Source: an uncultured Clostridia bacterium (GTDB lineage: Bacteria > Bacillota > Clostridia > Christensenellales > Borkfalkiaceae). Taken from it: 64,000 bases of DNA. The position numbers were made by a program, and so were the translations under genes. The stretch spans positions 248,001 through 312,000 of the forward strand of contig CALVUR010000001.1 of the NCBI GenBank assembly GCA_944363645.1, in the 5' to 3' direction. Below the pieces are notes generated by a model that saw only the letters and a program-made list of their open reading frames with translations, was not told the DNA's origin and did no database searches. Shown here piece by piece: positions 23,541 through 61,088 of this stretch. Within the stretch, counting starts at the first letter, position 1; the number at the start of each line of letters is the position of its first letter.

Positions 23541-23541
23541 A

Positions 23542-28512: not shown

Positions 28513-28549
28513 AATATTCTCCTGCTAATAGTCTTATTTTTTATTTTAC

Positions 28550-28719: not shown

Positions 28720-28800
28720 ATGTACGCGTATACTGTGCATTTTTGTATAAAATTTGGATGTAAACTTTTCGTATACTGCGGTCAAATGTCCGCCATTAAA

Positions 28801-28857
28801 AAGCGTTTTTCACCTGCAAACTGTTAAATTTGCAGGTGGATAAAACGATTTTTTTAA
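28801..28857 (-). terminator. Terminator of the MoxR/VWA cluster
   Basis: CACCTGCAAA (28811-28820) pairs with TTTGCAGGTG (28829-28838), extended by CGTTTT/AAAACG outside. On the minus strand GCTTTTT follows. It lies about 60 bp beyond the stop of the LRR lipoprotein gene. Confidence 0.8.
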
Positions 28858-28910
28858 TTTGTTAAAGTAAAATTTACCTTAAATTTGATGTGCAAATTTG
28901 CTAAAAACAA

Positions 28911-34774: not shown

Positions 34775-34789
34775 AAACTCTCCACCCCC

Positions 34790-37698: not shown

Positions 37699-37805
37699 TT
37701 ATCTACCTTAATTGCCGTAACAACTTTTTACCAAATCTGTGAAAATTGTCCGCTTAAATTTTTGTCAAAAAAGCATTACAATAATTTTATAATCTATAAA
37801 TTTTT

Positions 37806-37845
37806 GCACCAAAAAAGGTCAAATTACCCCTTTTTTATTTGGTGC
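37806..37845. repeat. Long hairpin between moxR and the DUF58 gene
   Basis: GCACC (37806-37810) pairs with GGTGC (37841-37845), and AAAAAAGG with CCTTTTTT inside it, leaving a loop of about 10 nt. It overlaps the left end of a repeat copy. No U tract follows on minus, so it may be an RNA-stability or processing structure rather than a terminator. Confidence 0.55.
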
Positions 37846-37872
37846 GATAACGGGCTTATAGCCCCACTTTTT
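37841..37872 (-). repeat. Intergenic hairpin repeat, copy 5
   Basis: Reverse orientation, with core CGATAACGGGCTTATAG and arm CCCCACTTTTT; the usual AAAAAGTGG arm is replaced by GGTGC, which instead pairs with the hairpin to its left. It lies inside the MoxR/VWA cluster, between moxR and the DUF58 gene. Confidence 0.7.
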
Positions 37873-37906
37873 GCCAATTTTTATTTGGCTTTTAAACGCA
37901 CAAAGT

Positions 37907-37935
37907 CTTGTAACCTAAGATTGAAAGGTTACAAG
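37907..37935. other. Hairpin after moxR
   Basis: CTTGTAACC (37907-37915) and GGTTACAAG (37927-37935) form a perfect 9-bp stem with an 11-nt loop, 28 bp beyond the moxR stop. The minus-strand sequence after it lacks a clear U tract, so partial termination or 3-prime end protection are both possible. Confidence 0.5.
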
Positions 37936-37962
37936 AACAATAAGCGATAAAATATCTAATTT

Positions 37963-38979: not shown

Positions 38980-39028
38980 TTTTTCTTATTTCCTTAAAAT
39001 TTTATCGTTTATTTTTTATTTTTTAAAA

Positions 39029-41044: not shown

Positions 41045-44000
41045 TTATGCTTCGACGTAATCGAAGATAATGTTTGCGTTGCAACCGCCGTCCCAACTTA
41101 CACTACCGTTATCCATCCAATTGGATGTTTCGTCTTTACTGAACTTGAAGCAAATGGTTTGTTGTTCAGTCCAGAATTCAAATACATCACGACCGAAGTA
41201 GGTTTGTGGTGATTTGTGGAATACGATCTTTTCAACAGCGGTACAGCCACTGAATGCTTCCCAACCGATTTCATCAAGGTTTTGACTTAATGTAATGCTT
41301 GAGAGTGCTGTACAACCACTGAATGCTTGGCTACCGATTGTGGTAACTGTATCAGGAAGAACGATTGATTGAAGTGATGTGCAGTCAAGGAATGTTGAAG
41401 TACCGATGGTTAAGAAACCTTCTGGTAAGATAACTTCACGCAAGTTAGCACAGTAACGGAATATACCACCTGTTGTTGAGTATGAAGCCTTTGCTGTCTT
41501 TGTTGCCTTAAATTCTGTTACGCCACTTGGGATAGTAATAGAGATAAGACCTGTATTTTCGAAGCAGTAAGTACCAATGTATGTCAAACTTTGTGGTAAT
41601 GTGATTGCTTGCAATGATGTGCAGTTTTGGAACATGTAACTACTTAAATCGGTAATGCCCTCGCCGAGAGTTACGTTTGAAAGCATTGAAGCGTCTTTGA
41701 ACATGTAGTTACCGAGAGAGATAGGTGTACCATCTTCTTGAATGTTTGCTGGGATGTTGATTGTTGTTAAACTGTCGCAACCAGCGAAAGCGTATGTACC
41801 AATCTTTGTAACGTTTGAACCGATTGTAACATTTACTAAACTATCGCATTCGTAGAATAAGTAGTTAGGAATGTCTGTATCGATAGAAACGGTTTCAATC
41901 TTACTGCCACTAAATACTGAGTTAGTTGATGAAGAACCATTCAATTTAACGCCTTGTGGAATTGTTACGTTTTTGATGCCTGAACCATTGAATGCACCGT
42001 AACCAAGTTCGGTAACGGTTGCTGGGATTTCTATTGTTTCAAGTGATGTACAGTTACGGAATGCGTAACCACCGATCAATGTAACTTCGCCAAGGAATGT
42101 AACTGTTGTAAGGTTTGTACAACCATCAAATACATAACCAGATGAGTAACTTGAACCAATCTTTGTAACGCCAGCGGGGATAGTAACCTTTGTCAAGCCT
42201 GTTGCGTCAGCAAAACTTTGGTTTGGAATTGATGTCATATCGTCTGGTAAAACGATTTCTGTGATTAAATCACAACCAGCGAAAGCATAGCCACGGATTG
42301 TAACGCCACTTGGAATGGTTACAACACCGTTTGTACCTTTTGCTGCGCCTGGAACGCAAACGATTTCTAATTCTGATGGATCAGTGATGTTAATCAATGC
42401 GCCGGTGGTTGGATCTGTTGTGAAGTTTGTGTTGCCTTCTGCAACGTCAAAGCCTGTTAAGTTCTTGTTATAAGCGAATGCGCCCATACCAAGGTTAGCA
42501 GATTTTGCGAGTAAGCCAGATGGAATTGTGTACCTTGTTGCGCCTGTGTTAGCAAATGCCCTTGTACCAACAACTGTTACGGTTGATGGGATATCCATTG
42601 TGAGTGATGTACAACCATAGAATGCATAACCGCCGATCTTGGTAATTACGCCCAAGAAGTTTACGGTTGTTAAGTTTGTACAACCTGCGAATGTGTAAGC
42701 ACTGCCTGTTGCTGAACATGCTGTTGCGCTTGTACCAATCATCTTAACGCCAACAGGAACATCGATTGATTTTAAGCCTGAGTTCTGGAATGTGTAAGTG
42801 CCAAGGAAGTTAAGTGATGAACTTTCACCGAATGTAACGGTTTCTAAACCGGTACAACCATCGAACATGTGTGTTGTCAATGCTTTTACGCCATCAGGAA
42901 CAGCAAACGTTTTTAATTTAACGCATGCTTCTGCTGGATCGATAGTGGTGTTGCCCTTGTAACTTGAGAACATGTAAGTACCTAAGGTTGTTAAACTTGA
43001 ACCTTGTGTGAAGTTTACACTTTCTAAGTTAATACAACCGCTGAAGCAGTATGTACCAAACTTAGTTAAGGTATCAGGAATGTCGATTGAAACTAAACTT
43101 CTGCAGTTTGTGAAAGCATAGTTGCCGATTTCTTTCAAACCTTCTGGTAAGTTGATTTCAGCCAAACTTGTACAACCTGTGAATGCATAGTTGTTAATCT
43201 TTGTAACAGTTTGAGGTACTACGAATAATTCAATACTTGTACAGTTTTGGAATGCATTTGTGCCGATTTCAGTGATTGCTGAGTTGCCAGCAAAGTTTAC
43301 TGTTTGTAAGTTAGCGCAATTTGCAAACAAATATGATTCAATTTTTTTAATGCCTTCTGGCAATGTGATTGATGTGATAGATGTACCACGGAATGCACTT
43401 GCCTTAATGCTTGTTAACTGACTGCCTTCTTCAAATTCGATTGAAGTAAGAGCTGTACAGTTGTAGAATGCTGAACCGTTAATCGTTGTAACTGATTTAG
43501 GAATTACAATAGATTCAAGTGCTGTACATGGTGTGTATGTTGTACTTGTTAATGATGAGTAACCGAATGCGTAAGAGCCGATTGATGTTAAACTTGTACC
43601 GCCGGTAGCGTCTTTTACAAAGTTAACTGCCCTTAATTTATCGTTACTTACGAATGAGTAGTTGCCGATTGTAACAACTGTTGATGGGATGTCGATTGTT
43701 TCGAATGATGCGCCACGGAAAGCGTAGTTGCCGATTGTTTTAAGTTTTGAATCTGCTGGGAATGTAACTGATGTTAAGTTTTCACAGAATTCAAATGCAG
43801 AAACATCGATTTCGATAACGCTTGCTGGGATTTCGATTGAAGTGATACCGCTTGAATTGAACATATCTTCAGGGATAATGCTGAATTGTTCAGAATTTGG
43901 TAAAACAACTTCTTTCAAGTTTGTACAACCCATGAACATTGAAACACCAACTTCGTTGCCCTTTAAAGCACTTGGCTTATCCGGGTCGTTTTGGAATACA

Positions 44001-47000
44001 ACTTTTGTCAAGTTTGCGCAGTTGGAGAACGCACCATCACCAATTCTTTCAACGGTGTAAGGAATGTAAAGTTCGGTAATAGTATTTTGTTCTTCAAATA
44101 CGAATGAACCAATTTCAACAATGCCTTCTTTAATCGTTAATGGACCAGATGGTAATGTACCATAGATGAACATGATACCTGTGCCGTCTGTGTTATAGAT
44201 GAAAGGTTCGCCTGCAACGGTCTTGAATGATGGGTGTGTTGCCGGGATGTTGATTGTTGTAAGGTTTGGACAATCTTTAAATACGTATTCAATATTTGTA
44301 ACTGAATTTGAAAGGTTTACTGTAGTTAATGCATAACAGTTGTAGAATAATCTACCCTTGTTTGAAACTACTGTTGTGCCACCGCCCAAATCGAGTTTGC
44401 CGGAAATTGTTTCCGGGAATGTGAATTCGGTAAGAGCAGTTTGTGCAAATGCCTTGTATTCAATAATTTCGAGTGCGGACTTGCCAGCATTGTCACCGTC
44501 TTGGTAAGTTTCAAGTGTAATGCTTGCTAAGTTTGAAGCACCGCTGAATGCGTTGTAACCAATCTTTGTAACTGTCTTTGGAATTACCATTGAGGTAAGA
44601 CCTGTCATACCACTGAATGCATTGCTTGAAATTTCTTTTAAGCCGTCAGGAAGTGTGATAGACGTAATCTTCTTACAACCACTGAATGATGAGCCCATTT
44701 TTTCAAGTTTACTATTTGCACCGAAAGAAACTGTAGTGAGTTCTGGTGAATAGTTAAACACATAGGTCATTGATTTAACGCTACCTGGAACAACAATGCT
44801 TGTAAGGTTTGAATAACCGAGTGTGCCGTACATTGTGTATCCGTCTGGTGATGAAGATTCAGGAAGATTGATTGATGAAAGTTTGCTACAACCATAGAAT
44901 GTGTAGTAAAGTGCTGCATCATTTGTTGCTGTACCAGCGTCAGCAAGTTTTGAAACGCCTTCGCCGTAGAATTCAACACTTTCTAATGCTTCACAATAAT
45001 AGAAAGCATTTTTACCGAGATATTCGATGGTGTTAGGAATTCTTACACGTACGAGTGTTTGGTTAGCGTTATCTGAACCGTAATTTGAATAGTAACCCAT
45101 TAAGTAGTCACCAATGTGAGTTGTCCTTTGTGGGAAATTAAGTTCGGCAACAGGTACATATGAGAATACGCCTGTGTAAGAAACGCCGTAACCACTGCTA
45201 CCAGAAGTACCGTCTGCGATAACTAATGGTGCAACGTATGTGCCGTCTTCGTTCTTAGCGTCGTTGCCTTCTTCAAAGGTAATACTTGTGAGTGATGTGC
45301 AGTAGTAGAATGCTCTATCGCCTATTTCTGTTACCGAATTAGGAATAACGATTGATTCTAATGCCGAGCAGTAGTAGAATGCGTATTCGCCAATACGTGT
45401 AACTGATTGAGGAATTGTAACGCTTACTAAGCTTTCTGACCAATAGAACATTCTGTCAGCGATTTCTGTTAAGCCTTCAGGAAGTTCAATAGTAGTGATT
45501 AAACTGTTGTAGAATGCTTGTTGACCGAATGTTAAGGTTGCGCCTTGTTCGATGCCTTGACTGAATGTAAGTCTTTCTGCTTGTGAGTAAGCAAATGCCT
45601 TATCGCCAATGGTGGTAACTGTCTTTGGTACGTCGATTGTGCCTGTCAATGCTGATGGGCAGAATAACAATGTAACTAAGTTACCGTTAGCATCTTTTTC
45701 ATATAAGATACCGTTATGTGTACCATATTTGGGGTTGCTTTCTGCAACGATTACGCTTGTCAATGCTGAACTTGAAGTGGTGTAGAACATGTTGAAGATT
45801 TCTTTCTTCAAGGTTGAGTCGTAACCGTATTTAATAACTGTAAGTGTTGATGGTAACGTAACGCTTTCTAAGCCATAGCAGTAGTAGAATAATTGTGCGC
45901 CAACTTCGGTTACCCTTTCAGGTAATACCATAGTTGTAAGTTCATTACAATACATGAATACTGCTTCGCCTAAAATTAAGTTTTCAGTACCGCCTTCTTC
46001 AAAGACAACTTCTACCAATGCGTCGCAGTCATAGAATGCTTCGTTACCGATAGACGTAACATTTTTACCGATTGTTATCTTTGTCAATTTATCTCTGTCA
46101 CGGAATACGTTTGAACCGATTGATGTAACGGTTTCAGGTGTTACATATTCGCCTTCTTTTTCAGCTGGGTAGAATAAAATGTTTGTAACTGCCTTATCGT
46201 AAACAACGTTATCGATAACAGAGTAGTTTGTGTTGTTAGGATCTACGTTTACATTGATTAACTTTGGACCGAATACGCCGGCAATTTCAAGTTGGCTTGC
46301 GTTTGGACCGATGTTCAATGTTTTAACATAATATGTTGGGGCTGTTGTAGAGTTTGTAACTGTACCAAATGCGCCGTTAGCAAAGCCAGAGCAGTCGTAA
46401 GAGTCGAGTGTAACGGTTACAAGCTTTGAACATGCACCAAATGCACCAACACCAAGTTCTTGTAAGTTTGCTGGAAGTGAAACTGATGTGAATAATGCAT
46501 CTGATAAACTGTAGAATGCTTCGTTTTTGATAACTAATGGGTTATCGTTGATTGTGCCTTGGAAAACAAGGTTTTCAATAGCGTTACAACCACGGAATGC
46601 TGCTTCACCGATGTATGTAACATAGCCAGGAATGATGATTTCGGTAAGTTTTGTGTTGCCGTAGTATGTGTATGGGTTTACGCTTGATGTTGTGTTTTCA
46701 AACCTTGATGTGAAAGCGATTTCGCCGATACGTGTAACGCCTGCAGGAATTGTGTAACTACCGCCACGACCAACTGGGAAGTAAACAAGTGTTTTAACAC
46801 CTAATTCGTCTGTAGAGATAACTACGCCGTCAATAGATGAGAACTTGCCGTCATCACTTGCGAAGTTTACTGCTGAAAGTTTAGCACAACTTCTAAAGAT
46901 GCTACCTGTGATTGATTCAAGGCGTGATGGGAATGTGATTTCAAGTAAGTTTGAACAACCATAGATTGCTTCGTCGTCGATGCTAAGTGGAACAACTTCT

Positions 47001-50000
47001 TCGCCTTCTGCGGTTTCTTCAAACACGATTGAAGTTAAGTTTGTGTTGTAATAGAAAGCATTCTTTTCGATCTTTTGAACGCTTGCCGGTAAGGTAACAG
47101 TGTTAATCTTGGAAGCGTTTTTGAAGATGCTTGCTGAAATTGTTTGAACGCCATCAGCAACAACGATATCGCCAGATTTTGCGTATGGTACTGCGAAAAG
47201 TTCAACTGCGTTTGTTACTTCATTGTTTCTGTAAACAATACCATCTTTTGACCAGTATGGACCGAGTTCGCCAGTAGCACTACCTGTTTCGTAAATGTTG
47301 ATGTTGCTCAATTTTGTACAACTTTGGAATGCTGAACCTGTTTGGTTGATACCTTCGATACCAACGAAGATGTATTCGATTGTATCAGGTACATTGATTG
47401 TTTCAAGTCTGTTGCATGATGCGAATGCGCCAGAGTCGATTGTTGTAACCTTTTTACCATTATATGTTGCTGGAATGGTGATTTCGGTTACGAGTGAGAT
47501 ATAATTGCCTGCTGATACTGCATAGCCGTCGCTTAATTCGTCATAGGTAAATACCAACGCTTCAACGAAGTTAGCGGTAAGTGTTACGTCGCTGATACGG
47601 TCGTATTTAGCGAGTGCGTTACCGAGTTCGTCGGTGTATTTAACTGAACCTAAGTACCAACCGCTAAACGCATAACCGTTTGGCTCGATTTGTGGTACGG
47701 GCAAGGTGTATTTTTCGTTGTAGTAAACTTGGACTGTGTCGGTAAGTTGTTCGCCACCGTCTTCCCAATTAAGTGTTACATTAAAGGGCTTTGGTGTCCA
47801 GTTTGCGTACATGGTTACGTCATTTTTAAGTGTAAAGATGCCGTCTTCATATTGCTTACCGTTTGAACTTGCACCGCCTACCGTGTTGTACCAACCGTCA
47901 AAGTTGTAACCACCTTTGATACTTTCAGGAAGTGTTAAGTGGTCGCCGTCAGCAACATATTGTGTTGCTACGCTTGTACCACCGTTTACTTCGTAGTAAA
48001 CTGTGTAAATGCTTACATCGATTGATGCGGCAGTTGAATCGATTTTATTGCCATATGCTGCAACTTGGATGGTGTATTCACCGCTTCTTGTAAAGGATAC
48101 AGGGATACTGTGTGTGTTTGCATCCAAAACAACAGGTTCGTTTGTGCCAACGGTTACACGGAATCTTTCTGCGCCAAAGACGTTACCCCATGTTAAGTAA
48201 CCATCTTGGTATTCGATAAGATCGGGTGTCATTTTTGCCAAGTTGCTGATTTCAACTTCGTCTGAATAAAGTGATGATTGTGTACCAACTTGGAGTTGAA
48301 CTTGAACTGTCCATTTATCCATGCCAGCGAAGTTGCTTTCGTCAAGAAGGAGTGAGTTTGTTGTTGTTGTAAGAACCTTACTACCAATCTTTACCCTATA
48401 CGTTGCGCCTTCAACGTTATCCCAAACGAGAGTTTTTTCGTTTAACATAATGTTTGTTGGGCATGCTAAGGTTGATTTGTTGTAAGTAACGCTTACTGCT
48501 TCTGGTGAGTAATAGTTGTTTGCTTCTGGTTGAACGCTTACTGTGATACTGCCAGCGTCGTATGATTTGAGTGAAATTTGTGTTTCGCTGATGTATTCAA
48601 CAGTTTCGCCGTTTGCGGTTGTAACTGTTACTGCGTAACTTGTTGCGTTTTTAACTGCGCCCCATGTTACCATACCAGTGTCGCTGTCTACCTTTAAGCC
48701 GGTAACTTTGTCTAAACCTTGATAGAAGTTAAATACATTTGACGTTGATGGTAAATAACCTTCTGCTTGTGCGGTTACGGTAAAGTTGATACCGTCTGCT
48801 TGCATATCGCAGTTTGCAAAGTTGTATGTTGTGGACATGCCGTTTGAAAGCATTGTGTGCTTATGACCTTTGTTGCCACAATCAATAGTGATAAGATATT
48901 CGGTTGCGTTTTCAACAGAGTTATAGGTAAGTGCTGTGCCGTTTGATACTTGGAAGTTAGATACTTTTGCCAAAGCCTTGTTTCTTAAGTATGCAGTACC
49001 TGTTTGTCCCCTGTATGAAACGTTTACCCTGTATTCGCCAGCAGGTTGATTTGAGAAAGCAAAATCATACCTTGTTGATGTTGTCGTTTCTGAAACTAAA
49101 AGTTCGCCTTCTGGTGAATATACATAAACGCTGTATGTGCCAAGACCTAAATTGTTCCAGCTGATAACATCGTTGCTAACAGATACAACGGGCGCACTTT
49201 GTTTCCAAACTGCGAAAAGTGTTGTGTTTTGATTGAGTTTTTGACCTTCATATTTGTATGTAAGTTTTGTTGGATCTTCATAATCACTTACATACCAACC
49301 CAAAAATGTGTAAGAACCAGGTCTACTTGGAGCATCTAAAATTTGCGCTACGCCATTTTGAGTTTTTGAAGTAGTTACGCTTGCGCCGTCGTAGTTAGGA
49401 TTATATGTAACTACAAATTCGTTTTCAGCCGCTTGACCGTAAGATGCATACAATGTGATGTCTGCTGTTACTGCTTCGCCGCCAAATTGATAAGGTTGGT
49501 TAAATGCTTCGTCTTTATACCAGCCCAAGAAAACTTTACCGGGTGAATGTGGGTCTGCTGGTTTTTCAACAGTCTTACCATGACGTACCTGTTGTGCTGG
49601 TACGCTTGAACCACCCTTTGAGTCAAAAGTAACTGTAAAAGTTATATCTTTCAAGAATATGTAAGTGTTTGACCTGAAAAGTACACTTAATACATTGTTA
49701 CTATAAGTTGCTTGTGCTACATAATCGATAGAGTCGCCAAAGTTTAATGTCAATTTATAGGCATCGTCTTCATCTTTAACACAAGTACCACTTAAGTTTT
49801 CGTCAGCAAGTACAAGCGAGGTTGAACCGTCTTCGCCGATAGTCAAAGTAGATTCTTCACCATCGACAACGCAGTAATAACTGCCTACCTCATCGCCTGC
49901 CTTATAGTCGCTATCTGTCTTTTCCTTACATGCAGCAAATGCCAAAACACTTACTAACATAATAGCCGAAAGAATGATAACGCTCAGCCGTTTAGTGTTC

Positions 50001-50002
50001 AT
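41045..50002 (-). CDS. Giant InlB/Fn3/LRR_5 surface lipoprotein 1
   Basis: A 2,985-residue predicted lipoprotein (lipobox FAAC, C25). After a beta-rich N-terminal module (26-115) come two InlB_B repeats (about 118-268, ending LYASYG and LFAVWK), several Fn3-like modules to about 640 (VTWGAVKNATSY, LVWDNVEGATYR), two more InlB_B repeats near 667-815, and then some 2,000 residues of BspA-type LRR_5 repeats of about 23 residues. A conserved C-terminal cap begins SPQTYFGRDVF. It has no LPXTG signal and no C-terminal helix, so lipid anchoring at the N-terminus is expected. It is a tandem paralogue of the gene at 50743-59670. Start: strong ATAGGAGGC. Likely an adhesin or ligand sensor on the cell surface. 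Confidence 0.9.
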   Translation of the reverse strand: MNTKRLSVIILSAIMLVSVLAFAACKEKTDSDYKAGDEVGSYYCVVDGEESTLTIGEDGSTSLVLADENLSGTCVKDEDDAYKLTLNFGDSIDYVAQATYSNNVLSVLFRSNTYIFLKDITFTVTFDSKGGSSVPAQQVRHGKTVEKPADPHSPGKVFLGWYKDEAFNQPYQFGGEAVTADITLYASYGQAAENEFVVTYNPNYDGASVTTSKTQNGVAQILDAPSRPGSYTFLGWYVSDYEDPTKLTYKYEGQKLNQNTTLFAVWKQSAPVVSVSNDVISWNNLGLGTYSVYVYSPEGELLVSETTTSTRYDFAFSNQPAGEYRVNVSYRGQTGTAYLRNKALAKVSNFQVSNGTALTYNSVENATEYLITIDCGNKGHKHTMLSNGMSTTYNFANCDMQADGINFTVTAQAEGYLPSTSNVFNFYQGLDKVTGLKVDSDTGMVTWGAVKNATSYAVTVTTANGETVEYISETQISLKSYDAGSITVSVQPEANNYYSPEAVSVTYNKSTLACPTNIMLNEKTLVWDNVEGATYRVKIGSKVLTTTTNSLLLDESNFAGMDKWTVQVQLQVGTQSSLYSDEVEISNLAKMTPDLIEYQDGYLTWGNVFGAERFRVTVGTNEPVVLDANTHSIPVSFTRSGEYTIQVAAYGNKIDSTAASIDVSIYTVYYEVNGGTSVATQYVADGDHLTLPESIKGGYNFDGWYNTVGGASSNGKQYEDGIFTLKNDVTMYANWTPKPFNVTLNWEDGGEQLTDTVQVYYNEKYTLPVPQIEPNGYAFSGWYLGSVKYTDELGNALAKYDRISDVTLTANFVEALVFTYDELSDGYAVSAGNYISLVTEITIPATYNGKKVTTIDSGAFASCNRLETINVPDTIEYIFVGIEGINQTGSAFQSCTKLSNINIYETGSATGELGPYWSKDGIVYRNNEVTNAVELFAVPYAKSGDIVVADGVQTISASIFKNASKINTVTLPASVQKIEKNAFYYNTNLTSIVFEETAEGEEVVPLSIDDEAIYGCSNLLEITFPSRLESITGSIFRSCAKLSAVNFASDDGKFSSIDGVVISTDELGVKTLVYFPVGRGGSYTIPAGVTRIGEIAFTSRFENTTSSVNPYTYYGNTKLTEIIIPGYVTYIGEAAFRGCNAIENLVFQGTINDNPLVIKNEAFYSLSDALFTSVSLPANLQELGVGAFGACSKLVTVTLDSYDCSGFANGAFGTVTNSTTAPTYYVKTLNIGPNASQLEIAGVFGPKLINVNVDPNNTNYSVIDNVVYDKAVTNILFYPAEKEGEYVTPETVTSIGSNVFRDRDKLTKITIGKNVTSIGNEAFYDCDALVEVVFEEGGTENLILGEAVFMYCNELTTMVLPERVTEVGAQLFYYCYGLESVTLPSTLTVIKYGYDSTLKKEIFNMFYTTSSSALTSVIVAESNPKYGTHNGILYEKDANGNLVTLLFCPSALTGTIDVPKTVTTIGDKAFAYSQAERLTFSQGIEQGATLTFGQQAFYNSLITTIELPEGLTEIADRMFYWSESLVSVTIPQSVTRIGEYAFYYCSALESIVIPNSVTEIGDRAFYYCTSLTSITFEEGNDAKNEDGTYVAPLVIADGTSGSSGYGVSYTGVFSYVPVAELNFPQRTTHIGDYLMGYYSNYGSDNANQTLVRVRIPNTIEYLGKNAFYYCEALESVEFYGEGVSKLADAGTATNDAALYYTFYGCSKLSSINLPESSSPDGYTMYGTLGYSNLTSIVVPGSVKSMTYVFNYSPELTTVSFGANSKLEKMGSSFSGCKKITSITLPDGLKEISSNAFSGMTGLTSMVIPKTVTKIGYNAFSGASNLASITLETYQDGDNAGKSALEIIEYKAFAQTALTEFTFPETISGKLDLGGGTTVVSNKGRLFYNCYALTTVNLSNSVTNIEYVFKDCPNLTTINIPATHPSFKTVAGEPFIYNTDGTGIMFIYGTLPSGPLTIKEGIVEIGSFVFEEQNTITELYIPYTVERIGDGAFSNCANLTKVVFQNDPDKPSALKGNEVGVSMFMGCTNLKEVVLPNSEQFSIIPEDMFNSSGITSIEIPASVIEIDVSAFEFCENLTSVTFPADSKLKTIGNYAFRGASFETIDIPSTVVTIGNYSFVSNDKLRAVNFVKDATGGTSLTSIGSYAFGYSSLTSTTYTPCTALESIVIPKSVTTINGSAFYNCTALTSIEFEEGSQLTSIKASAFRGTSITSITLPEGIKKIESYLFANCANLQTVNFAGNSAITEIGTNAFQNCTSIELFVVPQTVTKINNYAFTGCTSLAEINLPEGLKEIGNYAFTNCRSLVSIDIPDTLTKFGTYCFSGCINLESVNFTQGSSLTTLGTYMFSSYKGNTTIDPAEACVKLKTFAVPDGVKALTTHMFDGCTGLETVTFGESSSLNFLGTYTFQNSGLKSIDVPVGVKMIGTSATACSATGSAYTFAGCTNLTTVNFLGVITKIGGYAFYGCTSLTMDIPSTVTVVGTRAFANTGATRYTIPSGLLAKSANLGMGAFAYNKNLTGFDVAEGNTNFTTDPTTGALINITDPSELEIVCVPGAAKGTNGVVTIPSGVTIRGYAFAGCDLITEIVLPDDMTSIPNQSFADATGLTKVTIPAGVTKIGSSYSSGYVFDGCTNLTTVTFLGEVTLIGGYAFRNCTSLETIEIPATVTELGYGAFNGSGIKNVTIPQGVKLNGSSSTNSVFSGSKIETVSIDTDIPNYLFYECDSLVNVTIGSNVTKIGTYAFAGCDSLTTINIPANIQEDGTPISLGNYMFKDASMLSNVTLGEGITDLSSYMFQNCTSLQAITLPQSLTYIGTYCFENTGLISITIPSGVTEFKATKTAKASYSTTGGIFRYCANLREVILPEGFLTIGTSTFLDCTSLQSIVLPDTVTTIGSQAFSGCTALSSITLSQNLDEIGWEAFSGCTAVEKIVFHKSPQTYFGRDVFEFWTEQQTICFKFSKDETSNWMDNGSVSWDGGCNANIIFDYVEA
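47341..47807 (-). repeat. Near-identical tract shared by the giant genes (first copy)
   Basis: Codes for the third and fourth InlB repeats and first LRR of giant 1. Identical to the copy at 57012-57478 except at two or three silent positions near its ends. The best explanation is recent gene conversion. Confidence 0.85.
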
Positions 50003-50067
50003 AAAAGCCTCCTATTGTAAATTTTCTATAAATTGTAAAAAATATTACAAAAAATTTATATGCGTTT

Positions 50068-50097
50068 ATTATATCATTATATAATTGTCGCTGTCAA
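50068..50097 (-). promoter_or_regulatory. Promoter of giant lipoprotein gene 1
   Basis: Minus-strand TTGACA (50092-50097) and TATAAT (50068-50073), spacer 18. The 5-prime untranslated leader is then about 60 nt. The -35 neighbourhood matches the MoxR cluster promoter. Confidence 0.75.
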
Positions 50098-50155
50098 ATG
50101 CTTTTTAGCAATTTGAAAAAATTTAATAAAATTTTAAGACAAAAAATTGATGTTT

Positions 50156-50182
50156 AAAATCATTGATTTTATGCGAGATTTT
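50156..50182 (+). promoter_or_regulatory. Shared upstream element, giant gene 1 copy
   Basis: AAAATC-ATT-GATTTT inverted repeat followed by ATGCGAGATTTT. It is almost the same as the element upstream of rex (4739-4765) and lies 59 bp upstream of the -35. The remainder of 50100-50590 is AT-rich and shows no ORF or other structure. Confidence 0.5.
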
Positions 50183-50592
50183 AAAGATTTTGCATAAAAT
50201 TTTACATAAAAGTATAAAAAAATTTCGGTTGCCCACGCCAAACAACCGTTTTTCAGCAGAAAACAAACATCAAAAAAACTTTAGTCCCCTAAAGAAATTT
50301 TTGCAGTGTTAAATTTTGTGAAAGAATTCACCTTTTTATAATGTTTTTGTAAATTTTTATTAGTTTTAAATTTTTTGCCCTGTCTTTTTAAAAAAATCGG
50401 CGAATTTTTACTTTTTTATTTAAGCAAAATCAAATGATAAAAATATAAAAAACAACTTTTGAAAAAAGTAAACTTTAAAAAACAAATTTATTTATTTATT
50501 TATTTATATTTTATCCTTATAAAAATATGCTAATTTAAATAAAAATTTGCTAATTTAATTTAAAACGAGCAAAAAAATGGTTAAATTTAGCC

Positions 50593-50627
50593 AAAAGTGG
50601 CGATAACGGGCTTATAGGCGGACTTTT
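50593..50627 (-). repeat. Intergenic hairpin repeat, copy 8
   Basis: Reverse orientation, AAAAGTGG arm, core CGATAACGGGCTTATAG then GCGGACTTTT; the CCGCC subtype. It lies just downstream of the second giant gene terminator. Confidence 0.75.
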
Positions 50628-50667
50628 AAAAAAACCGCCCTTAAATTTGCCCTTTTTTAGCAAAGAA

Positions 50668-50705
50668 AAAGCGTCTACCCCGGCAGTAACCGAAGTAGAC
50701 GCTTT
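50668..50705 (-). terminator. Terminator of the second giant lipoprotein gene
   Basis: AAAGCGTCTAC (50668-50678) pairs with GTAGACGCTTT (50695-50705); CTTTTTC follows on minus. The stop codon is at 50743. Confidence 0.85.
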
Positions 50706-50742
50706 AATTTAATTTACAAGTAAAAACTTGTTTTAAATTGTG

Positions 50743-53700
50743 TTATGCTTCAACATAGTTGAAAACAAAGGTTGCTTCGGACGAACTTGCCCAACTTGAA
50801 GTTGTGGTTTGTGTCCAGTTTGTAGTTTCTTCTTCGCCGAACATAAAGTATACAGTTTGGTCTTTAGTCCAGTTTAAGAATACATTTGTACCGAAGTAAG
50901 TTTGTGGTGAAGCCTTAAATACAAGTTTTTTAATGCCTGTACAATCTGCAAACGCTTGGTAACCAAGTGAGTCAAGGCTTGATGGTAAAGTGAGTTCTTG
51001 AAGTGATGTACAGCCGTTAAATGCGTTGCTACCGATGATTGCGGTATTGTCTGGCAATACAACGTTTACAAGTGATGTGCAGCCTTGGAATACGCCTGCA
51101 CCCATGCCTTCGAAACCTTCTGGGAAGATAACTTCACGTAAGTTTTCGCAGCCTTTGAAGGTGTATGCCGTTGATGAATATGTCATAGTAGCAGTTGGGC
51201 TTGATTTAAGAGTTTTTACGCCAGATGGGATGGTAAGTGTTTCAAGACCAGATTCGCTGAAGCAGTAAGTACCGATATGTGTCAAAGACTGTGGTAAAGT
51301 GATTGTCCTTAATGATGAGCATCTTTGGAATGTGTAGTTGCCGATTTCGGTAATGCCCTCTTCTAAGGTAACATTTGCTAAACCTGTGCAGTCTTGGAAA
51401 AGGTATGTACCAAGTTTGATTGGTGTGCCTTCGGTATTAACGTTTGCGGGGATACTGATTGAAACTAAGCCATCGCATTTTGAGAATGCGTCGTTGCCAA
51501 TGCTTCTTACGTTTGGACCGATTACAACGCTTACTAAACTGTCTGAATCGTAGAACAAGTAATTTGGAATATCTGTGTCGATATTAACCTTTTGAATTAA
51601 ACTTTGACTGAAGATTGCGGTTGAAGAAGAAGTACCCTTTAACTCTATACCAGCGGGTATTGTAAGTTCGGTAAGACCTGAAAGTTTGAATACGCCGTAG
51701 CCGAGTTGTTCAACCGTGTTAGGAATTTCAAAAGATGTAAGCGATGTACAACGTTCAAATGTGTAACCGCCCAAAAGGGTGATGTTGCCAAGGAATGTAA
51801 CGCTTGTCAATGATGTACAGCCCGAGAACATGTAACCTGATGAATAACTTGAACCAATTTTTGTGATACCAGCCGGGATAGTAATTGAAGTTAAGCCCGT
51901 AGCATCGTAGAATGTGTAATTGTTAAGTACTGTCATGTCGTCAGGTAAAACGATTTGAGTTATCTTATCGCAACCAGCGAAAGCGTAACCACGGATTGTG
52001 TCGCCACTATTTATAGTAATAGTACCGTTATCCCCTGCTAAACTTGCCGGGAAGCAGATAAATTCTTGTGTGCCGTCAGCGTTAGGTACAGAAAGTGCGC
52101 CCGTTACGGCATCTACTTTGAAGTCTGTATTGCCTTCAGCGATAGTAAAGCCTGTAAGTTTTGTGTTGTAAGCAAATGCGCCGTCGCCTATTGAGGATGA
52201 ACCTGAAGATAAGCCTGCTGGGATGGTGTAATTTGTTGTAGCAGTGTCAGCAAACGCCAACTTACCAATTAAAGTAACGGTTTGTGGGATGTCCATTGTA
52301 AGTGAAGAACAGCCGTAGAACACGTAAGCACCAATCTTTGTTACTTCGCCAAGGAACGTAACGCTTGTTAAGTTTTCACAACCGGCAAAAGTGTATGCTG
52401 CGCCCGTTGTTGTACAACTTGTTGCGCTTGTGCCGAGTTCTGTAACGCCATCAGGAATAACGATTGATTGTAAGCCTGAATCACGGAAAGTGGACTGACC
52501 AAGGAATGTAAGTTGCGAACCTTCGCCAAATGTAACAGTTTCTAAAGCGGTACAACCCATAAACATATAGTTACCTAATGCGGTAACGCCATCAGGGATA
52601 GCAATGCTTCTTAAACTTATACATGAGTTTGCTGTTGTGCCGTACCCAGCGAATACATAAGTACCGAATGATACAAGTTGAGAATTTTCGCCGAATGTAA
52701 CAGTTTCTAAAAGTTCACAACCACTGAATGCGTAGTTACCGATCTTTGTAATGCTGTCTGGGATAGCGATTGATGGTAAAGATTTACAATTTGTAAATGT
52801 ATACGATTGAAGTTGAGTTAAGTTTTGTGATAATTTTACGCTTGTTAAGTTTTCACAGCCCATAAATACATATGTGCCGAGTGAGGTAACAGTGTCAGGT
52901 ATCGCAATGCTTTCTAAACTTGTACAATTTTGGAATACATAGTTACCGATTGTCTTTAACTGAGATGCTTCGTCAAAAATTACCGTACGAAGGTTTGCAC
53001 AACCATTAAATATGTAGTTATCAAAAGTGGTGATTGATTGTGGTACAACGAAAGTTTCGATTGCGGTGTTACGGAAAGCACTGTAACCAAACGCTGTAAG
53101 TGTGGTACCTTCTTCAAACACGAAAGACCTAAGTGATGTACAGTTATAGAATGTGTAACCTTGAAGTTTAGTAACCGATTTAGGAATTACGATAGATTCA
53201 AGCGAGATACAAGGTGTATATGTTGTTGAAGTCATGCTTGAATAACCGAACGCATAGTTGCCGATTGTAGTCAAACTTGTGTTGCCGTTTTCGTCCTTTT
53301 CAAAGATTACTTCCCTTAACGCAACGTTACTGATAAATGCGTAAGTACCGATAGTTTTAAGGCTTGAAGGAAGTGAGATTGTTTCAAACGCTGTTTCACG
53401 GAATGCATAGTTGCCGATTGTGGTAAGTTTGCTACCCTTAGCGAATGTAAGTGATGTCAAGTTGTTGCAGAATTCAAATGCAGATGGACCGATTTCAACG
53501 ATATTTGCAGGAATTTCAAATGAAGTTAAGCCCGAGCCGTTGAAGGTGTCTTCTGGGATGGTTGTAAACTGTTCGCTTGTAGGAAGTACAACTTCTTTCA
53601 AGTTTTTACAGTCTTTAAATAATGCAACGCCCACGTGGTCTTGTTTTAAAGCACTTGGTTTTTCCGGGGTGTTTTCAAACACTACCCTTTCCAAACCTTG

Positions 53701-56700
53701 ACAGTTAGCAAATGCGCCGTCGCCAATCTTTTCAACAGTGTAAGGTACGTGGATTTCGGTAATTTTATCTTGACCATCAAATACGTAAGGTGCTATTTCT
53801 AAAATACCTTCTTTAATTTCGAATTTACCTGCCGGCAATGTACCGAAAACGTACAAAATGCCCGTGCCTTCTGCGTTGTAAATGTAAGGTTCACCTCTGA
53901 CTGTCTTAAAGTTTTCATGACTGTCGGGGATGATGATTGTGGTAAGGTTTGGACAATCTTTGAACACGTATTCGATGTTCTTGATTGAGTGTGAAAGTGT
54001 TACGGTGGTTAAGCCGTAGCAATTATAGAACAACCTACCTTTGTAATCAACGTTTGTTGTACCGCCGCCAAGTGCAATGTCGCCACTAATAGATTCCGGG
54101 AAAGTGAAACTTGTCAAAGCGGTGTTTGCAAATGCCTTATAATCGATTTCAACAAGGCTTGTTTTGCCCATATTTTCGCCTTCGGTGAATGTTGCAAAGA
54201 CGATATCACTTAAACTTGTGCAGTTTAAGAATGCGTTGTAACCAATAGAAGTAACAGTTTTTGGTATTACTATCGATGTAAGGGCTTTTAAGCCAGAGAA
54301 TGCGCTGTAGTTAATTGTTTCTAAACCATCTGGTAAGATGATTGTGTGAAGATTTACTGCTCGACTAAAGCAAGATGAAATTGATTTAAGTTTGCTGTTT
54401 TCTGCAAATGTTACTTTTTGTAAGTTTTCGCTGTAGTTGAAAGCAGAGGTCATTGATTTTACGCTTGCAGGAACGACAACTTCTTCAAGATTTGAATAAC
54501 TGAAACCGCCGTAAATTGAATAGCCTGCTTCTGCGGAAGATTCTGGGATGTTTATCGACCTTAAACTCTTACAGCCGTAGAATGTGTAATAGATTGCAGA
54601 ATCGTCATAGTCAGGGCCACGGTCGGCAAGTTTTGAAAGTCCTTCGCCAACAAATTCTACCGTTTCTAAGCCTTCGCAGTAGTAGAATGCACGTGCGCCG
54701 AGATATTCGATTGACATAGGAATTACTACGCGTTTAAGTGTTTGGTTACCGCTTGATGAGTAGCCATACATTAAGTTGTTTGCAATATGTGTTGTCCTTT
54801 GTGGGAAGATAAGTTCTGTAATAGCAGTGTTGCTGAGTGCGCCCGGCGATGCAACTAATGAACTTGAAGAAGTTGATTTTGCGTTTGCAAATACCAATGG
54901 GTTTACATAAGTGCCGTCTGGGTTTTTAGCGTCGTTGCCTTCTTCAAAGGTAATACTTGTGAGTGACGTGCAGTAGTTGAATGCTTTATCGCCTATTTCT
55001 GTTACCGAATTAGGAATAACGATTGATTCTAACGCCTTACAGTAGTAGAAGGCGTACTCGCCAATGCGTGTTACAGTTGACGGAATGGTAATGCTTACAA
55101 GAGATTCGCTGTAATAGAACATTCTGTCAGTGATTTCTGTCAAGCCTTCAGGAAGGTCGATTTTTGAAATTTCACTGCTGTAAAATGCCTGTTCGCCAAA
55201 GATCAAGGTTGCGCCTTGTTCGATGCCTTGACTAAATGTAAGCCTTTCTGCTTGAGAGTAAGCAAATGCCTTTTCACCAATCTTTGTTACGGTGTTAGGA
55301 ATATCAATTACGCCCGTAATTGAAGATGGGCAGAACAACAAGGTAACCAAGTTGCCGTCAGTATCTTTTTCAAATAACATGCCGTTAAGTGAGCCGTAGT
55401 TTGCGTTGCTTTCGCTTATGTTGATTGCACGCAAAACTGATGACGATGTGCCACTAAACATGTTAAAGATGTCTTTTTTGAGTGTTGAGTCGTAACCAAA
55501 TTTGATTGATTGAAGTGTGGATGGTAAACTTACTGTTTCAAGTGAGTTGCAGTAATAGAAAAGTTCTGAACCAACTTGTGTAAGTCTTTCGGGTAAAGTG
55601 ATGTTTTCGATCAATGAGCAGTACGTAAATACGCCATTGCCTAAAACCAATTCACTGCTGCCGCCGTCCTCGAAGATTACGCTTACAAGTTCGTCGCAGT
55701 CATAGAATGCTTCGTCGCCGATAGACGTAACATTTTTGCCGATTACAATACTTGTCAAGCCGTCCCTATCACGGAAAACGTTTGCGCCGATTGAAGTAAG
55801 TGTTTCAGGTGTTACGTATCCGCCATATTTAGCAGATGGGTAGAATAATACGCTTGTAACCAACTTATCGTACACTACGTTATCGATAACAGAGTAGTTT
55901 TCGTTGGTAGGATCTACGTTTACTTTGATTAACTTTGGACCGAAAACGCCGGCAATTTCGATTGCGCTTGCGTTAGGACCAATGTTTAAGGTTGTAACGT
56001 AATACGTTGGGGCTGTTGTTGAAGTGGTAACTGTACCAAATGCGCCCGTTTCAAAACCTGAACAGTCGTAAGAATTTAAGTTTACTGTAAGAAGTTTTGT
56101 ACAGTTGCCGAACGCACCTGCGCCAAGTGATACCAAGTTGCCGGGAAGGGTTACCGTTGTAAACCTATCGTCAGTGATGCCGTAAAAGGCTTCGTTTGCG
56201 ATTGTCAATGGGTTGTCGGTAATTGTACCTAAGAAGTTGATTCTTTCAAGAGCAGTACAAGCACGGAATGCTACTTCGCCGATATATGTAACATAGCCCG
56301 GAATTGTGATTTCGGTAAGTTTTGTGTTGCCGTAGTATGTGAATGGTGTAATGGTTGAAGTTGTGTTTTCAAACCTTGTTGTAAACGCCAAATCACCGAT
56401 ACGTGTTACGCCTGATGGTATTGTGAACTCGCCACCCCTTGCGATTGGGAAGTAAACAAGTGTTACAACGCCCAATTCGTCTTTAGAATATACGATACCG
56501 TCGTCGCTGTAATAATTACCGCCGTCGCCAGAGACGTTTATCGTTGCAAGTTTAGAACAACTTCTAAAGATGTTGCCTGCAAAGTTTGTTAAGCGTGAAG
56601 GAAGTGTTGCTTCAAGCAAGTTTGAACAGATATAGAAGGCTTCTGTTTCAATTTCGAGTGGAACTGCTTCATCGCCTTCTGGGGTTTCTTCAAACACGAC

Positions 56701-59670
56701 TGATGTCAAGTTGGTGTTTGAGTAGAATGCACGGTATTCGATAGATTTTACGCTTGCTGGGAAAACAACTGTGTTGATTTTTGACAAATATTTAAATGTG
56801 TTAGAAGTGATTGTTTCAACGCCGTCAGCGATTACGACAGTACCGGATTTTGCGTAAGGTACAGCGAAAAGTTCAACTGCGTTTGTTACTTCATTGTTTC
56901 TGTAAACGATGCCGTCCACCGACCAATATGGACCAACTTCGCCAGCAGAACTACCTGTTTCGTAAATGTTAATGTTACGAAGTAATGTACAGCCTTGGAA
57001 TGCAGAACCTGTTTGGTTGATACCTTCGATACCAACGAAAATGTATTCGATTGTATCGGGTACATTGATTGTTTCAAGTCTGTTGCATGATGCGAATGCG
57101 CCAGAGTCGATTGTTGTAACCTTTTTACCATTATATGTTGCTGGAATGGTGATTTCGGTTACGAGTGAGATATAATTGCCTGCTGATACTGCATAGCCGT
57201 CGCTTAATTCGTCATAGGTAAATACCAACGCTTCAACGAAGTTAGCGGTAAGTGTTACGTCGCTGATACGGTCGTATTTAGCGAGTGCGTTACCGAGTTC
57301 GTCGGTGTATTTAACTGAACCTAAGTACCAACCGCTAAACGCATAACCGTTTGGCTCGATTTGTGGTACGGGCAAGGTGTATTTTTCGTTGTAGTAAACT
57401 TGGACTGTGTCGGTAAGTTGTTCGCCACCGTCTTCCCAATTAAGTGTTACATTAAAGGGCTTTGGTGTCCAGTTTGCATACATGGTTACGTCATTTTTAA
57501 GTGTAAAGATGCCGTCTTCATATTGCTTACCGTTTGAACTTGCACCGCCAACAGAGTTGTACCAACCGTCAAAGTTGTAACCACCTTTAATGCTTTCAGG
57601 AAGTGTTAAGTGGTCGCCTTCTGCAACGATTTGAGAGTTTACGATTGTACCGCCGTTTGATTCGTAGTAAACGGTGTAAACGCTTACTTCGATTGAAGCA
57701 GCAGTTGAATCGATTTTATTGCCATATGCTGAAACTTGAATGGTGTATTCACCGCTTCTTGTAAAGGTTACGGGGGTGCTATGTGTGCTTGCATCCAAAA
57801 CCATTGGTTCGTTTGTGCCAACGGTTACACGGAATCTTTCTGCACCAAAGACGTTGCCCCAAGTAACTACGCCGTCTTGATATTTAATAAGATCGGCAGT
57901 CATTTTTGCCAAGTTGCTGATTTCAATTTCTTGTGAGTAAAGCGAGGACTTTCCGCCAACTTCAAGTTGGACTTGAACGGTCCATTTATCCATGCCGTCA
58001 AAGTTGCTTTCGTCAAGAACAAGTGAGTTTGTGCTGGTAGAAACAACTTTATCGCCAATTTTAACCTTATATGTTGCGCCTTCAACGTTATCCCAAACGA
58101 GAGTTTTTTCGTTTAACATAATGTTTGTTGGGCATGCCAAAGTGGTTTTTGCGTAAGTTAATGATACGGCATCTGGTGAGTAATAGTTGTTTGCTTTTGG
58201 CTGAACGGAAATTGTAATATCGCCTACGCCATAATCTTTAATTGATATGGTTTGATTTGATACGTGGTGTACCTTTTCGCCGTCAGCAGTAGTAACTGTT
58301 ACCGTGTAACTTGTTGCGTTTTCAACAGCGTCCCATGCAACAATCCCTGTGTCGCCGTCAACTTTTAAGCCTTTAACGCTTTCTAAACCTTGATAGAAGT
58401 TGAAAACTTTTGAGGTTGATGACATGTATCCGCTTGCCGTTGCTGTTACGCTAAAGTTGATACCTTCTGCTTGCATATCGCAGTTTGCGAAGTTGTATGT
58501 TGTGGAATTGCCGTTTGATAGCATTGTGTGCTTGTGGGCTTTGTTTCCGCAGTCGATAGTAATAAGGTATTCTGTTGCGTTTTCAACAGGGTTATAGGTA
58601 AGTGCTGTGCCGTTTGTTACTTGGAAGTTAGATACCCTTGCCAAAACCTTATTTTTTAAGTACGCACTACCCGTTTGTCCCCTATACGATACGTTGATTT
58701 TGTATTCGCCAGCGGGTTGGGATGAAAATGCGTATTCATACTTTGTTGTGGTTGTTGTTTCGGAAACTAAAAGTTCACCGCTTTGTGAATACACATAAAC
58801 GCTGTATGTGCCAAGACCTAAACTGTTCCAACTGATTACATCACCGCTAACAGATACTGTTGGGGCGGAATTTTTCCAGCCGGCAAACAAAATGGTGTCT
58901 TGCTTAATAGTTTGACCTTCATATTTATATGTAAGTTTTGTTGGATCGTCATAATCACTTACGTACCAGCCCAAAAATACCGAAGAATCGGGGTTTTGTG
59001 GGTTTTTAGGCATTGTTACCACGCCGTTTTCCGTTTTTACGGTCGTGATTTCTGCGCCGTCATAGTTTGGGTTGAAGGTAACCATGAATTCAGTTTCTGC
59101 CGCATTGCCGTAAACCGCGTAAAGGGTTAAATCTTCTGTAACCGCTTCACCGTCAAATGAATATGGCATATTGCCCTCTTTATCCTTATACCAGCCGATA
59201 AACGGCTTATTGCCATAGGTTGGATCTTCGGGCTTTGATACCGTTTCGCCGTGGCGTACTTGCTTTGATGCAACAGTTGACCCACCCATTGAATCAAATG
59301 TTACTGTAAAATTTATATCCCTTAGATATCTGTACTCAGTAGACCTAAACGTTACAACAAGTATGTTTTTGCCGTAACTTGCCTGTGCGACTTCGCTTTC
59401 GCCAAATGTCAAGGTAAATTGTGTCGAACTTGACTTTTCTTTGTCGCATGTACCAGATATGGTTTCTTCGCCAAGTACAAGTGTAACAGTTCCCTCATCA
59501 CTAATGGTTAAGGTTGATTCTTCACCATTAACAATGCAGTAATAACTGCCTACCTCGTCGCCTTTTTTAAAGCCACTATCATCATTCTTTGTTTTGCAAC
59601 CAATACTAAATATTGTCGCAAGTGCCATAATAACGGCAAGAAGTATGATATTAGTTTTCTTTGCGTTCAT
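50743..59670 (-). CDS. Giant InlB/Fn3/LRR_5 surface lipoprotein 2
   Basis: A 2,975-residue paralogue of the preceding giant, collinear from signal peptide to C-terminal cap (SPQTYFGTNVF), hence a tandem gene duplication. The lipobox is SIGC (C25), less canonical than in protein 1. Architecture: N-terminal module, two InlB_B repeats, Fn3-like modules, two InlB_B repeats, then about 2,000 residues of LRR_5. The InlB 3-4 and first LRR region is essentially identical to protein 1, while flanking regions differ at many residues, indicating gene conversion. Separate promoter (59737-59766) and terminator allow independent expression. Start supported by AAGGAGGC. The divergence of the LRR tract suggests different ligands. 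Confidence 0.9.
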   Translation of the reverse strand: MNAKKTNIILLAVIMALATIFSIGCKTKNDDSGFKKGDEVGSYYCIVNGEESTLTISDEGTVTLVLGEETISGTCDKEKSSSTQFTLTFGESEVAQASYGKNILVVTFRSTEYRYLRDINFTVTFDSMGGSTVASKQVRHGETVSKPEDPTYGNKPFIGWYKDKEGNMPYSFDGEAVTEDLTLYAVYGNAAETEFMVTFNPNYDGAEITTVKTENGVVTMPKNPQNPDSSVFLGWYVSDYDDPTKLTYKYEGQTIKQDTILFAGWKNSAPTVSVSGDVISWNSLGLGTYSVYVYSQSGELLVSETTTTTKYEYAFSSQPAGEYKINVSYRGQTGSAYLKNKVLARVSNFQVTNGTALTYNPVENATEYLITIDCGNKAHKHTMLSNGNSTTYNFANCDMQAEGINFSVTATASGYMSSTSKVFNFYQGLESVKGLKVDGDTGIVAWDAVENATSYTVTVTTADGEKVHHVSNQTISIKDYGVGDITISVQPKANNYYSPDAVSLTYAKTTLACPTNIMLNEKTLVWDNVEGATYKVKIGDKVVSTSTNSLVLDESNFDGMDKWTVQVQLEVGGKSSLYSQEIEISNLAKMTADLIKYQDGVVTWGNVFGAERFRVTVGTNEPMVLDASTHSTPVTFTRSGEYTIQVSAYGNKIDSTAASIEVSVYTVYYESNGGTIVNSQIVAEGDHLTLPESIKGGYNFDGWYNSVGGASSNGKQYEDGIFTLKNDVTMYANWTPKPFNVTLNWEDGGEQLTDTVQVYYNEKYTLPVPQIEPNGYAFSGWYLGSVKYTDELGNALAKYDRISDVTLTANFVEALVFTYDELSDGYAVSAGNYISLVTEITIPATYNGKKVTTIDSGAFASCNRLETINVPDTIEYIFVGIEGINQTGSAFQGCTLLRNINIYETGSSAGEVGPYWSVDGIVYRNNEVTNAVELFAVPYAKSGTVVIADGVETITSNTFKYLSKINTVVFPASVKSIEYRAFYSNTNLTSVVFEETPEGDEAVPLEIETEAFYICSNLLEATLPSRLTNFAGNIFRSCSKLATINVSGDGGNYYSDDGIVYSKDELGVVTLVYFPIARGGEFTIPSGVTRIGDLAFTTRFENTTSTITPFTYYGNTKLTEITIPGYVTYIGEVAFRACTALERINFLGTITDNPLTIANEAFYGITDDRFTTVTLPGNLVSLGAGAFGNCTKLLTVNLNSYDCSGFETGAFGTVTTSTTAPTYYVTTLNIGPNASAIEIAGVFGPKLIKVNVDPTNENYSVIDNVVYDKLVTSVLFYPSAKYGGYVTPETLTSIGANVFRDRDGLTSIVIGKNVTSIGDEAFYDCDELVSVIFEDGGSSELVLGNGVFTYCSLIENITLPERLTQVGSELFYYCNSLETVSLPSTLQSIKFGYDSTLKKDIFNMFSGTSSSVLRAINISESNANYGSLNGMLFEKDTDGNLVTLLFCPSSITGVIDIPNTVTKIGEKAFAYSQAERLTFSQGIEQGATLIFGEQAFYSSEISKIDLPEGLTEITDRMFYYSESLVSITIPSTVTRIGEYAFYYCKALESIVIPNSVTEIGDKAFNYCTSLTSITFEEGNDAKNPDGTYVNPLVFANAKSTSSSSLVASPGALSNTAITELIFPQRTTHIANNLMYGYSSSGNQTLKRVVIPMSIEYLGARAFYYCEGLETVEFVGEGLSKLADRGPDYDDSAIYYTFYGCKSLRSINIPESSAEAGYSIYGGFSYSNLEEVVVPASVKSMTSAFNYSENLQKVTFAENSKLKSISSCFSRAVNLHTIILPDGLETINYSAFSGLKALTSIVIPKTVTSIGYNAFLNCTSLSDIVFATFTEGENMGKTSLVEIDYKAFANTALTSFTFPESISGDIALGGGTTNVDYKGRLFYNCYGLTTVTLSHSIKNIEYVFKDCPNLTTIIIPDSHENFKTVRGEPYIYNAEGTGILYVFGTLPAGKFEIKEGILEIAPYVFDGQDKITEIHVPYTVEKIGDGAFANCQGLERVVFENTPEKPSALKQDHVGVALFKDCKNLKEVVLPTSEQFTTIPEDTFNGSGLTSFEIPANIVEIGPSAFEFCNNLTSLTFAKGSKLTTIGNYAFRETAFETISLPSSLKTIGTYAFISNVALREVIFEKDENGNTSLTTIGNYAFGYSSMTSTTYTPCISLESIVIPKSVTKLQGYTFYNCTSLRSFVFEEGTTLTAFGYSAFRNTAIETFVVPQSITTFDNYIFNGCANLRTVIFDEASQLKTIGNYVFQNCTSLESIAIPDTVTSLGTYVFMGCENLTSVKLSQNLTQLQSYTFTNCKSLPSIAIPDSITKIGNYAFSGCELLETVTFGENSQLVSFGTYVFAGYGTTANSCISLRSIAIPDGVTALGNYMFMGCTALETVTFGEGSQLTFLGQSTFRDSGLQSIVIPDGVTELGTSATSCTTTGAAYTFAGCENLTSVTFLGEVTKIGAYVFYGCSSLTMDIPQTVTLIGKLAFADTATTNYTIPAGLSSGSSSIGDGAFAYNTKLTGFTIAEGNTDFKVDAVTGALSVPNADGTQEFICFPASLAGDNGTITINSGDTIRGYAFAGCDKITQIVLPDDMTVLNNYTFYDATGLTSITIPAGITKIGSSYSSGYMFSGCTSLTSVTFLGNITLLGGYTFERCTSLTSFEIPNTVEQLGYGVFKLSGLTELTIPAGIELKGTSSSTAIFSQSLIQKVNIDTDIPNYLFYDSDSLVSVVIGPNVRSIGNDAFSKCDGLVSISIPANVNTEGTPIKLGTYLFQDCTGLANVTLEEGITEIGNYTFQRCSSLRTITLPQSLTHIGTYCFSESGLETLTIPSGVKTLKSSPTATMTYSSTAYTFKGCENLREVIFPEGFEGMGAGVFQGCTSLVNVVLPDNTAIIGSNAFNGCTSLQELTLPSSLDSLGYQAFADCTGIKKLVFKASPQTYFGTNVFLNWTKDQTVYFMFGEEETTNWTQTTTSSWASSSEATFVFNYVEA
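57012..57478 (-). repeat. Near-identical tract shared by the giant genes (second copy)
   Basis: Corresponds to 47341-47807 at a constant offset of 9,671 bp. By eye only two differences occur up to 57060, and none in the 419 bp between about 57059 and 57478. Flanks differ at ten or more of 60 positions. Confidence 0.85.
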
Positions 59671-59736: not shown

Positions 59737-59766
59737 ATTATACCATTTAAAAATTTTTGTTGTCAA
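59737..59766 (-). promoter_or_regulatory. Promoter of giant lipoprotein gene 2
   Basis: Minus-strand TTGACA (59761-59766) and TATAAT (59737-59742), spacer 18. The layout (spacer length, distance to start, element 60 bp upstream) matches giant gene 1, consistent with a duplicated leader. Confidence 0.78.
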
Positions 59767-60821: not shown

Positions 60822-61088
60822 TTAATCTTCCTTTAAAAATTTGCGATAGCCATTGCCTTGCTTAACGCATTTTGAAACCCTTGAAAGCGTTGCGGATGAG
60901 ATATCTGTTTCCTTTATAACGTTTTCATAAGTTTCCCCTTTAAGTAAAAGTTCAGCAGAATACACCCTTTGCGCCATCTGTTCTATCTCACGATAAGTGC
61001 AAAGGTCTTTAAAAAAATCTTTACATTCTTGCACGGTGTTAAGTTTTATAATCGTTTCGTACAACTTGTTTACATGGTTATTTTTCAT
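60822..61088 (-). CDS. yerC: YerC/YecD-type TrpR-related regulator
   Basis: An 88-residue TrpR-like protein. The order of helices and the segment LCTYREIEQMAQRVYSAELL, then a helix-turn-helix with ETDISSATLSRVSKCV, match the YerC/YecD family of TrpR relatives. It should be a small DNA-binding dimer that may sense an amino acid. It starts 39 bp after the ATPase gene with AAAGGTGG, so it is the last gene of the importer operon. Regulation of that operon, through the inverted repeats at 63743-63804, is a reasonable inference; the ligand is unknown. Confidence 0.9.
   Translation of the reverse strand: MKNNHVNKLYETIIKLNTVQECKDFFKDLCTYREIEQMAQRVYSAELLLKGETYENVIKETDISSATLSRVSKCVKQGNGYRKFLKED

Follow-up and report, generated by a model that had tools for sequence, protein, structure and literature searches.

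We found that a segment of about 614 bp was very probably homogenised between two tandem paralogous genes, here called A and B, by a conversion-type event long after the duplication that gave rise to the pair, as judged from sequence comparison. The window, i.e. the whole 64,000-nucleotide stretch of DNA that was analyzed, corresponds to positions 248001-312000 of contig C1 of a 1.50-Mb genome, which is assembled in 13 contigs and 94.6% complete. A and B are minus-strand open reading frames arranged head to tail, forming direct tandem repeats with a spacing of 9.7 kb, and both reading frames are intact and complete. The genes, their putative signals, and the homogenised segment are located as follows:

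41045-50002, minus strand: gene A, encoding a 2985-aa lipoprotein with a Cys-lipobox signal peptide, Flg_new (Listeria-Bacteroides) repeats, and a long BspA-type LRR_5 region
50743-59670, minus strand: gene B, encoding a 2975-aa tandem paralogue of A with 68% amino-acid identity
50068-50097, minus strand: promoter-like site of A, TTGACA-18-TATAAT, 12/12, with an extended -10
59737-59766, minus strand: promoter-like site of B, TTGACA-18-TATAAT, 12/12, with an extended -10
50668-50705, minus strand: strong terminator-like hairpin after B, 17 pairs
47334-47947, minus strand: homogenised (putatively converted) tract in A, differing from B at 8 of 614 bp (maximum-scoring segment)
57005-57618, minus strand: homogenised tract in B, the counterpart of 47334-47947 in A, holding the exact run 57059-57477

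The DNA of A and B is 71.8% identical over 8922 aligned bases. Both proteins start with a lipoprotein signal peptide, as read from the sequence, and LRR_5 was matched at 1048 bits in A and 1023 bits in B (Pfam cut-off 27.7), which identifies them as BspA-type LRR proteins; Flg_new was also matched far over its cut-off. The pair is the product of tandem duplication of one giant LRR lipoprotein gene of the BspA type, and the lipoprotein and LRR features suggest that both products are probably exposed on the cell surface. A search of the rest of the genome revealed no third copy of the tract, the total being two.

The near-identity of 47341-47807 and 57012-57478, which had been described in an earlier note on this DNA, was confirmed. 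At an offset of 9671, the two stretches show three differences (47369, 47387, and 47807), each of which falls on codon position 3, and an exact run of 419 bp extends from 47388 to 47806 in A and from 57059 to 57477 in B. No exact repeats in the window are longer than those of 419, 71, and 65 bp. As likewise proposed earlier, the flanks are more diverged than the tract: on the left, identity in 100-bp steps is 62-86%, and on the right it declines gradually, from 95% to 81-89%. The tract covers the coding sequence for the latter part of a Flg_new repeat, for the Flg_new repeat that follows, and for the first LRR, and in the alignment the two proteins are identical for >150 residues at this junction preceding the LRR region.

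Silent sites set the tract apart from the remainder of the genes. The longest run of identical codons was 139, compared to at most 19 when the codon columns were permuted 2000 times, and the longest run of silent-identical codons among those encoding the same amino acid was 136, compared to a maximum of 42 in 5000 permutations. Of the fourfold silent sites, 3/96 differed in codons 696-915 and 343/857 elsewhere (Fisher p = 7.6e-16). Penalised segmentation of the silent differences returned codons 696-915 as the single low segment (0.03 versus 0.33 and 0.36). In codons 733-872, silent divergence between A and B was 0.01 and pN was 0.00, while the silent divergence mostly amounted to 0.3-0.8 elsewhere; the background silent distance between the genes is about 0.9 (Jukes-Cantor). 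Synonymous divergence plotted along the genes is thus not uniform and collapses in the main tract alone, which is bounded and has a silent divergence far below that of its flanks, as is typical of a conversion tract. No significant decay of divergence was seen with increasing distance from the tract (p = 0.07-0.08).

Identity of the tract taken by itself would also be expected if purifying selection at the nucleotide level, exerted through an overlapping gene, an RNA structure, or a binding site, had preserved it without recombination. This could be assessed with a congener, G004, whose only orthologue, C, lies at the syntenic site between the ABC transporter gene and the 354-aa/MoxR/DUF58/BatA genes. 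Since C is single-copy at this site, the duplication of A and B is local. In codons 733-872, pS was 0.74 for A and C and 0.73 for B and C, with a pN of 0.31, similar to the rest of the gene. Both tracts therefore differ from the orthologue at ordinary rates (pS about 0.73, pN 0.31), as a conversion tract should, which excludes nucleotide-level constraint for practical purposes and leaves recombination between A and B as the best explanation. In line with this, no Rfam family reached threshold in 40000-62000. We rejected constraint as the cause of the tract on the basis of the orthologue comparison and assign it next to no probability. The proposal of a recent conversion in the main tract is well supported for this single genome, in that silent divergence collapses there only while divergence from the orthologue is normal. 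The relatives retrieved in the scan of genome contigs, including one in a Candidatus Scatosoma pullistercoris MAG, are all distant (36-37%), so that the scan provided no conspecific strain for comparison. No strain or species with orthologues of both A and B was found among the genomes searched, and viral contigs contained no relative.

Another way to obtain such a tract would be an assembly artefact, in which the assembler collapsed or copied the segment and the true copies are as diverged as the flanks. The assembly indeed appears to be built from short reads: the ends of several contigs have exactly 77 bp in common (C2/C6 and C12/C13), the same sequence is found at the end of three contigs, and no 16S gene was recovered. 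We take these features to indicate that the reads were short and were assembled through a de Bruijn graph with k = 77. Since the 419-bp repeat is longer than k, it was presumably joined through paired reads. The assembler could have merged isolated differences flanked on either side by 77 identical bases, and all identical runs between A and B apart from this one are shorter than 77 bp; the 419-bp identity should therefore be taken as very high and not as literally perfect. However, a collapse requires at least 77 identical bases flanking each difference, which are absent at 15% divergence, so that divergence of this degree could not have been merged. In addition, the tract edges grade into partly diverged sequence in which differences are retained. 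Gross misjoining is also unlikely, since the assembled path is the sole linear path through one contig that takes in both direct repeats together with the middle segment. Overall, we consider an artefact improbable and retain recombination between the genes.

Two shorter blocks had also been reported as near-identical, the whole being read as a mosaic produced by repeated recombination. These blocks exist, but their coordinates in B were off by 3-4 bases; at the positions originally given, merely 17/65 and 28/106 bases match. The corrected positions are as follows:

48402-48466 in A and 58073-58137 in B (not 58076-58140), minus strand: 65-bp exact block, within chance given the amino-acid identity
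45255-45295 and 45316-45361 in A and 54926-54966 and 54987-55032 in B, minus strand: two exact runs of 41 and 46 bp, not significant

The longest silent-identical run outside the main run directly adjoins the tract and did not reach significance (p = 0.055). Outside codons 696-915, the longest fourfold-identical run was 11, with 12 expected, and fourfold differences outside the tract were not significantly overdispersed (p = 0.056). As silent sites gave no significant signal, the minor blocks were rejected as separate conversions; amino-acid conservation and chance account for them, and the mosaic interpretation was not sustained. Fourfold differences were modestly more frequent in codons 1-240 (34/63) than in codons 241-695 (57/178; p = 0.0025, for regions picked after inspection), which may be a trace of an older exchange.

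The following course of events would explain the data. Tandem duplication of a giant lipoprotein gene would have generated A and B, which then diverged for a long time before a segment of about 614 bp of one copy overwrote the other by homologous recombination. We infer that the general recombination machinery carried out this conversion non-reciprocally, with the donor segment on the same chromosome or on a sister chromosome, and that it would have left nearly identical tracts within otherwise diverged genes. The arrangement of A and B as direct tandem repeats 9.7 kb apart would also permit two unequal crossovers, i.e. a temporary triplication followed by a deletion at a different point, leaving the identical tract in both copies. 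This path leads to the same end product and is inseparable from conversion by sequence, but it requires two events instead of one, and we regard it as improbable.

Downstream of A and B lies a conserved cluster (31832-40093) encoding a 354-aa protein, a MoxR-type ATPase, a DUF58 protein, a BatA/VWA protein, and a VWA protein. The order of giant lipoprotein gene and MoxR-VWA genes recurs, in whole or in part, in G004, G007, G015, G022, G024, G239, and G242, which belong to several genera; the cluster genes in other genomes were recognised by the similarity of translated starts, without a profile search. A functional link of the MoxR-VWA system with the surface lipoprotein is possible, and a brief literature search yielded no paper on this association. 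Two giant lipoprotein genes also lie in tandem by the MoxR cluster in another genus (L122/L123, G239:C1:29000-58000), with 49% protein identity and without a recent conversion tract. Further downstream of the cluster in the window, at 15513-31817, more large genes are located. Since a 968-aa protein (28911-31817) contains LRR_5 and a 2495-aa frame contains matches to A (15513-23000), the locus is a cluster of such genes. Between gene B and the ABC transporter gene, a small TrpR-like (Trp_repressor) protein is encoded at 60822-61088.

Relatives of the N-terminal 901 aa were found in 111/398 genomes of the family (E up to 1e-20). Where two copies lay on recovered contigs, as was the case in 17 genomes, the pairs showed 35-51% protein identity and neither conversion nor a long identical run; the longest exact run, 40 bp, was found in the G239 tandem pair. 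Many hits end at contig edges, with 11/22 edges at residues 606-722 (binomial p = 0.00015, for edges gathered by eye and an interval picked after the data were seen). In G242, two genes on different contigs, L157 and L158 (C86 and C87), are 95% identical over 204 bp that run from the contig edge in the same Flg_new repeat; beyond these 204 bp, similarity ceases. The downstream genes differ, C87 carrying a gene like that for the 354-aa protein and MoxR, and C86 another lipoprotein gene. In the pairs L207/L208 in G203 (C3/C33) and L209/L210 in G364 (C84/C183), the contigs are identical for exactly their first 77 and first 55 bases, respectively, and then diverge. These contig starts in G203 and G364 are typical assembly-graph forks, and together the three cases suggest shared segments upstream of each fork, although the G203 and G364 contig pairs might be alleles of two strains instead of paralogues. 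Near-identical tracts or forks in up to three other species hint at recurrent exchange, or collapse, at the Flg_new/LRR junction domain. That the junction of Flg_new and first LRR is a recurrent recombination site in this small-genome gut-type family, with paralogues sharing the N-terminal module while their LRR regions diverge, and thus a route of domain shuffling for surface proteins, is nevertheless a tentative idea that we think doubtful. If exchange at the junction truly recurs, it would offer a simple route for remodelling LRR surface proteins. The A/B case also serves as a warning that these giant lipoprotein genes break or merge at a predictable place in short-read assemblies.

Programmed antigen variation, in which A and B regularly exchange segments and thereby alter the displayed protein, would be consistent with the apparent surface exposure of A and B as LRR lipoproteins and with the forks or near-identical tracts seen in the junction domain in paralogue pairs of other species. 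Surface-antigen variation, which the earlier note had raised as a possibility, is however argued against by several observations. The genome has just two copies, both complete and each with a 12/12 promoter-like site, and we found no promoterless silent donor cassettes, both tract copies lying within intact genes. Furthermore, an exact run of >40 bp was found in 0/17 other within-genome pairs. The tract is also shared, not variable: it homogenises the Flg_new/first-LRR junction and does not diversify the LRR region. Homogenisation runs opposite to what antigen variation needs, although in principle the event might, when it occurred, have given one copy a new mosaic structure. We therefore judge a programmed system to be very improbable.

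Segmental conversion is known from antigen variation in Borrelia vlsE, Neisseria pilE/pilS, and Anaplasma msp2, with vlsE tracts of up to 423 bp (PMC4534519). The tract of A and B resembles these in being partial and a few hundred bases long. The known systems, however, combine silent donors with an expression site, whereas A and B are two complete genes with promoter-like sites, and no silent cassettes were found. Compared to BspA-type LRR surface proteins (Pfam LRR_5, with Flg_new), A and B match both families but are very large (about 2980 aa), arranged in tandem, and located upstream of a MoxR-DUF58-BatA/VWA cluster. A parallel is provided by bacterial paralogues that undergo gene conversion and evolve in concert, as described for rRNA operons (PMC8022953) and protein genes (PMC6053082). 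As in these cases, a segment matches the other copy while the flanks differ, and intragenomic recombination explains the pattern. In contrast to them, the A/B tract is partial, the pair is otherwise 28% diverged in DNA, and the gene is a giant surface-lipoprotein gene from an uncultured lineage. Partial conversion between paralogues is well known, and the A/B event is an ordinary but clean example of it from an uncultured lineage.
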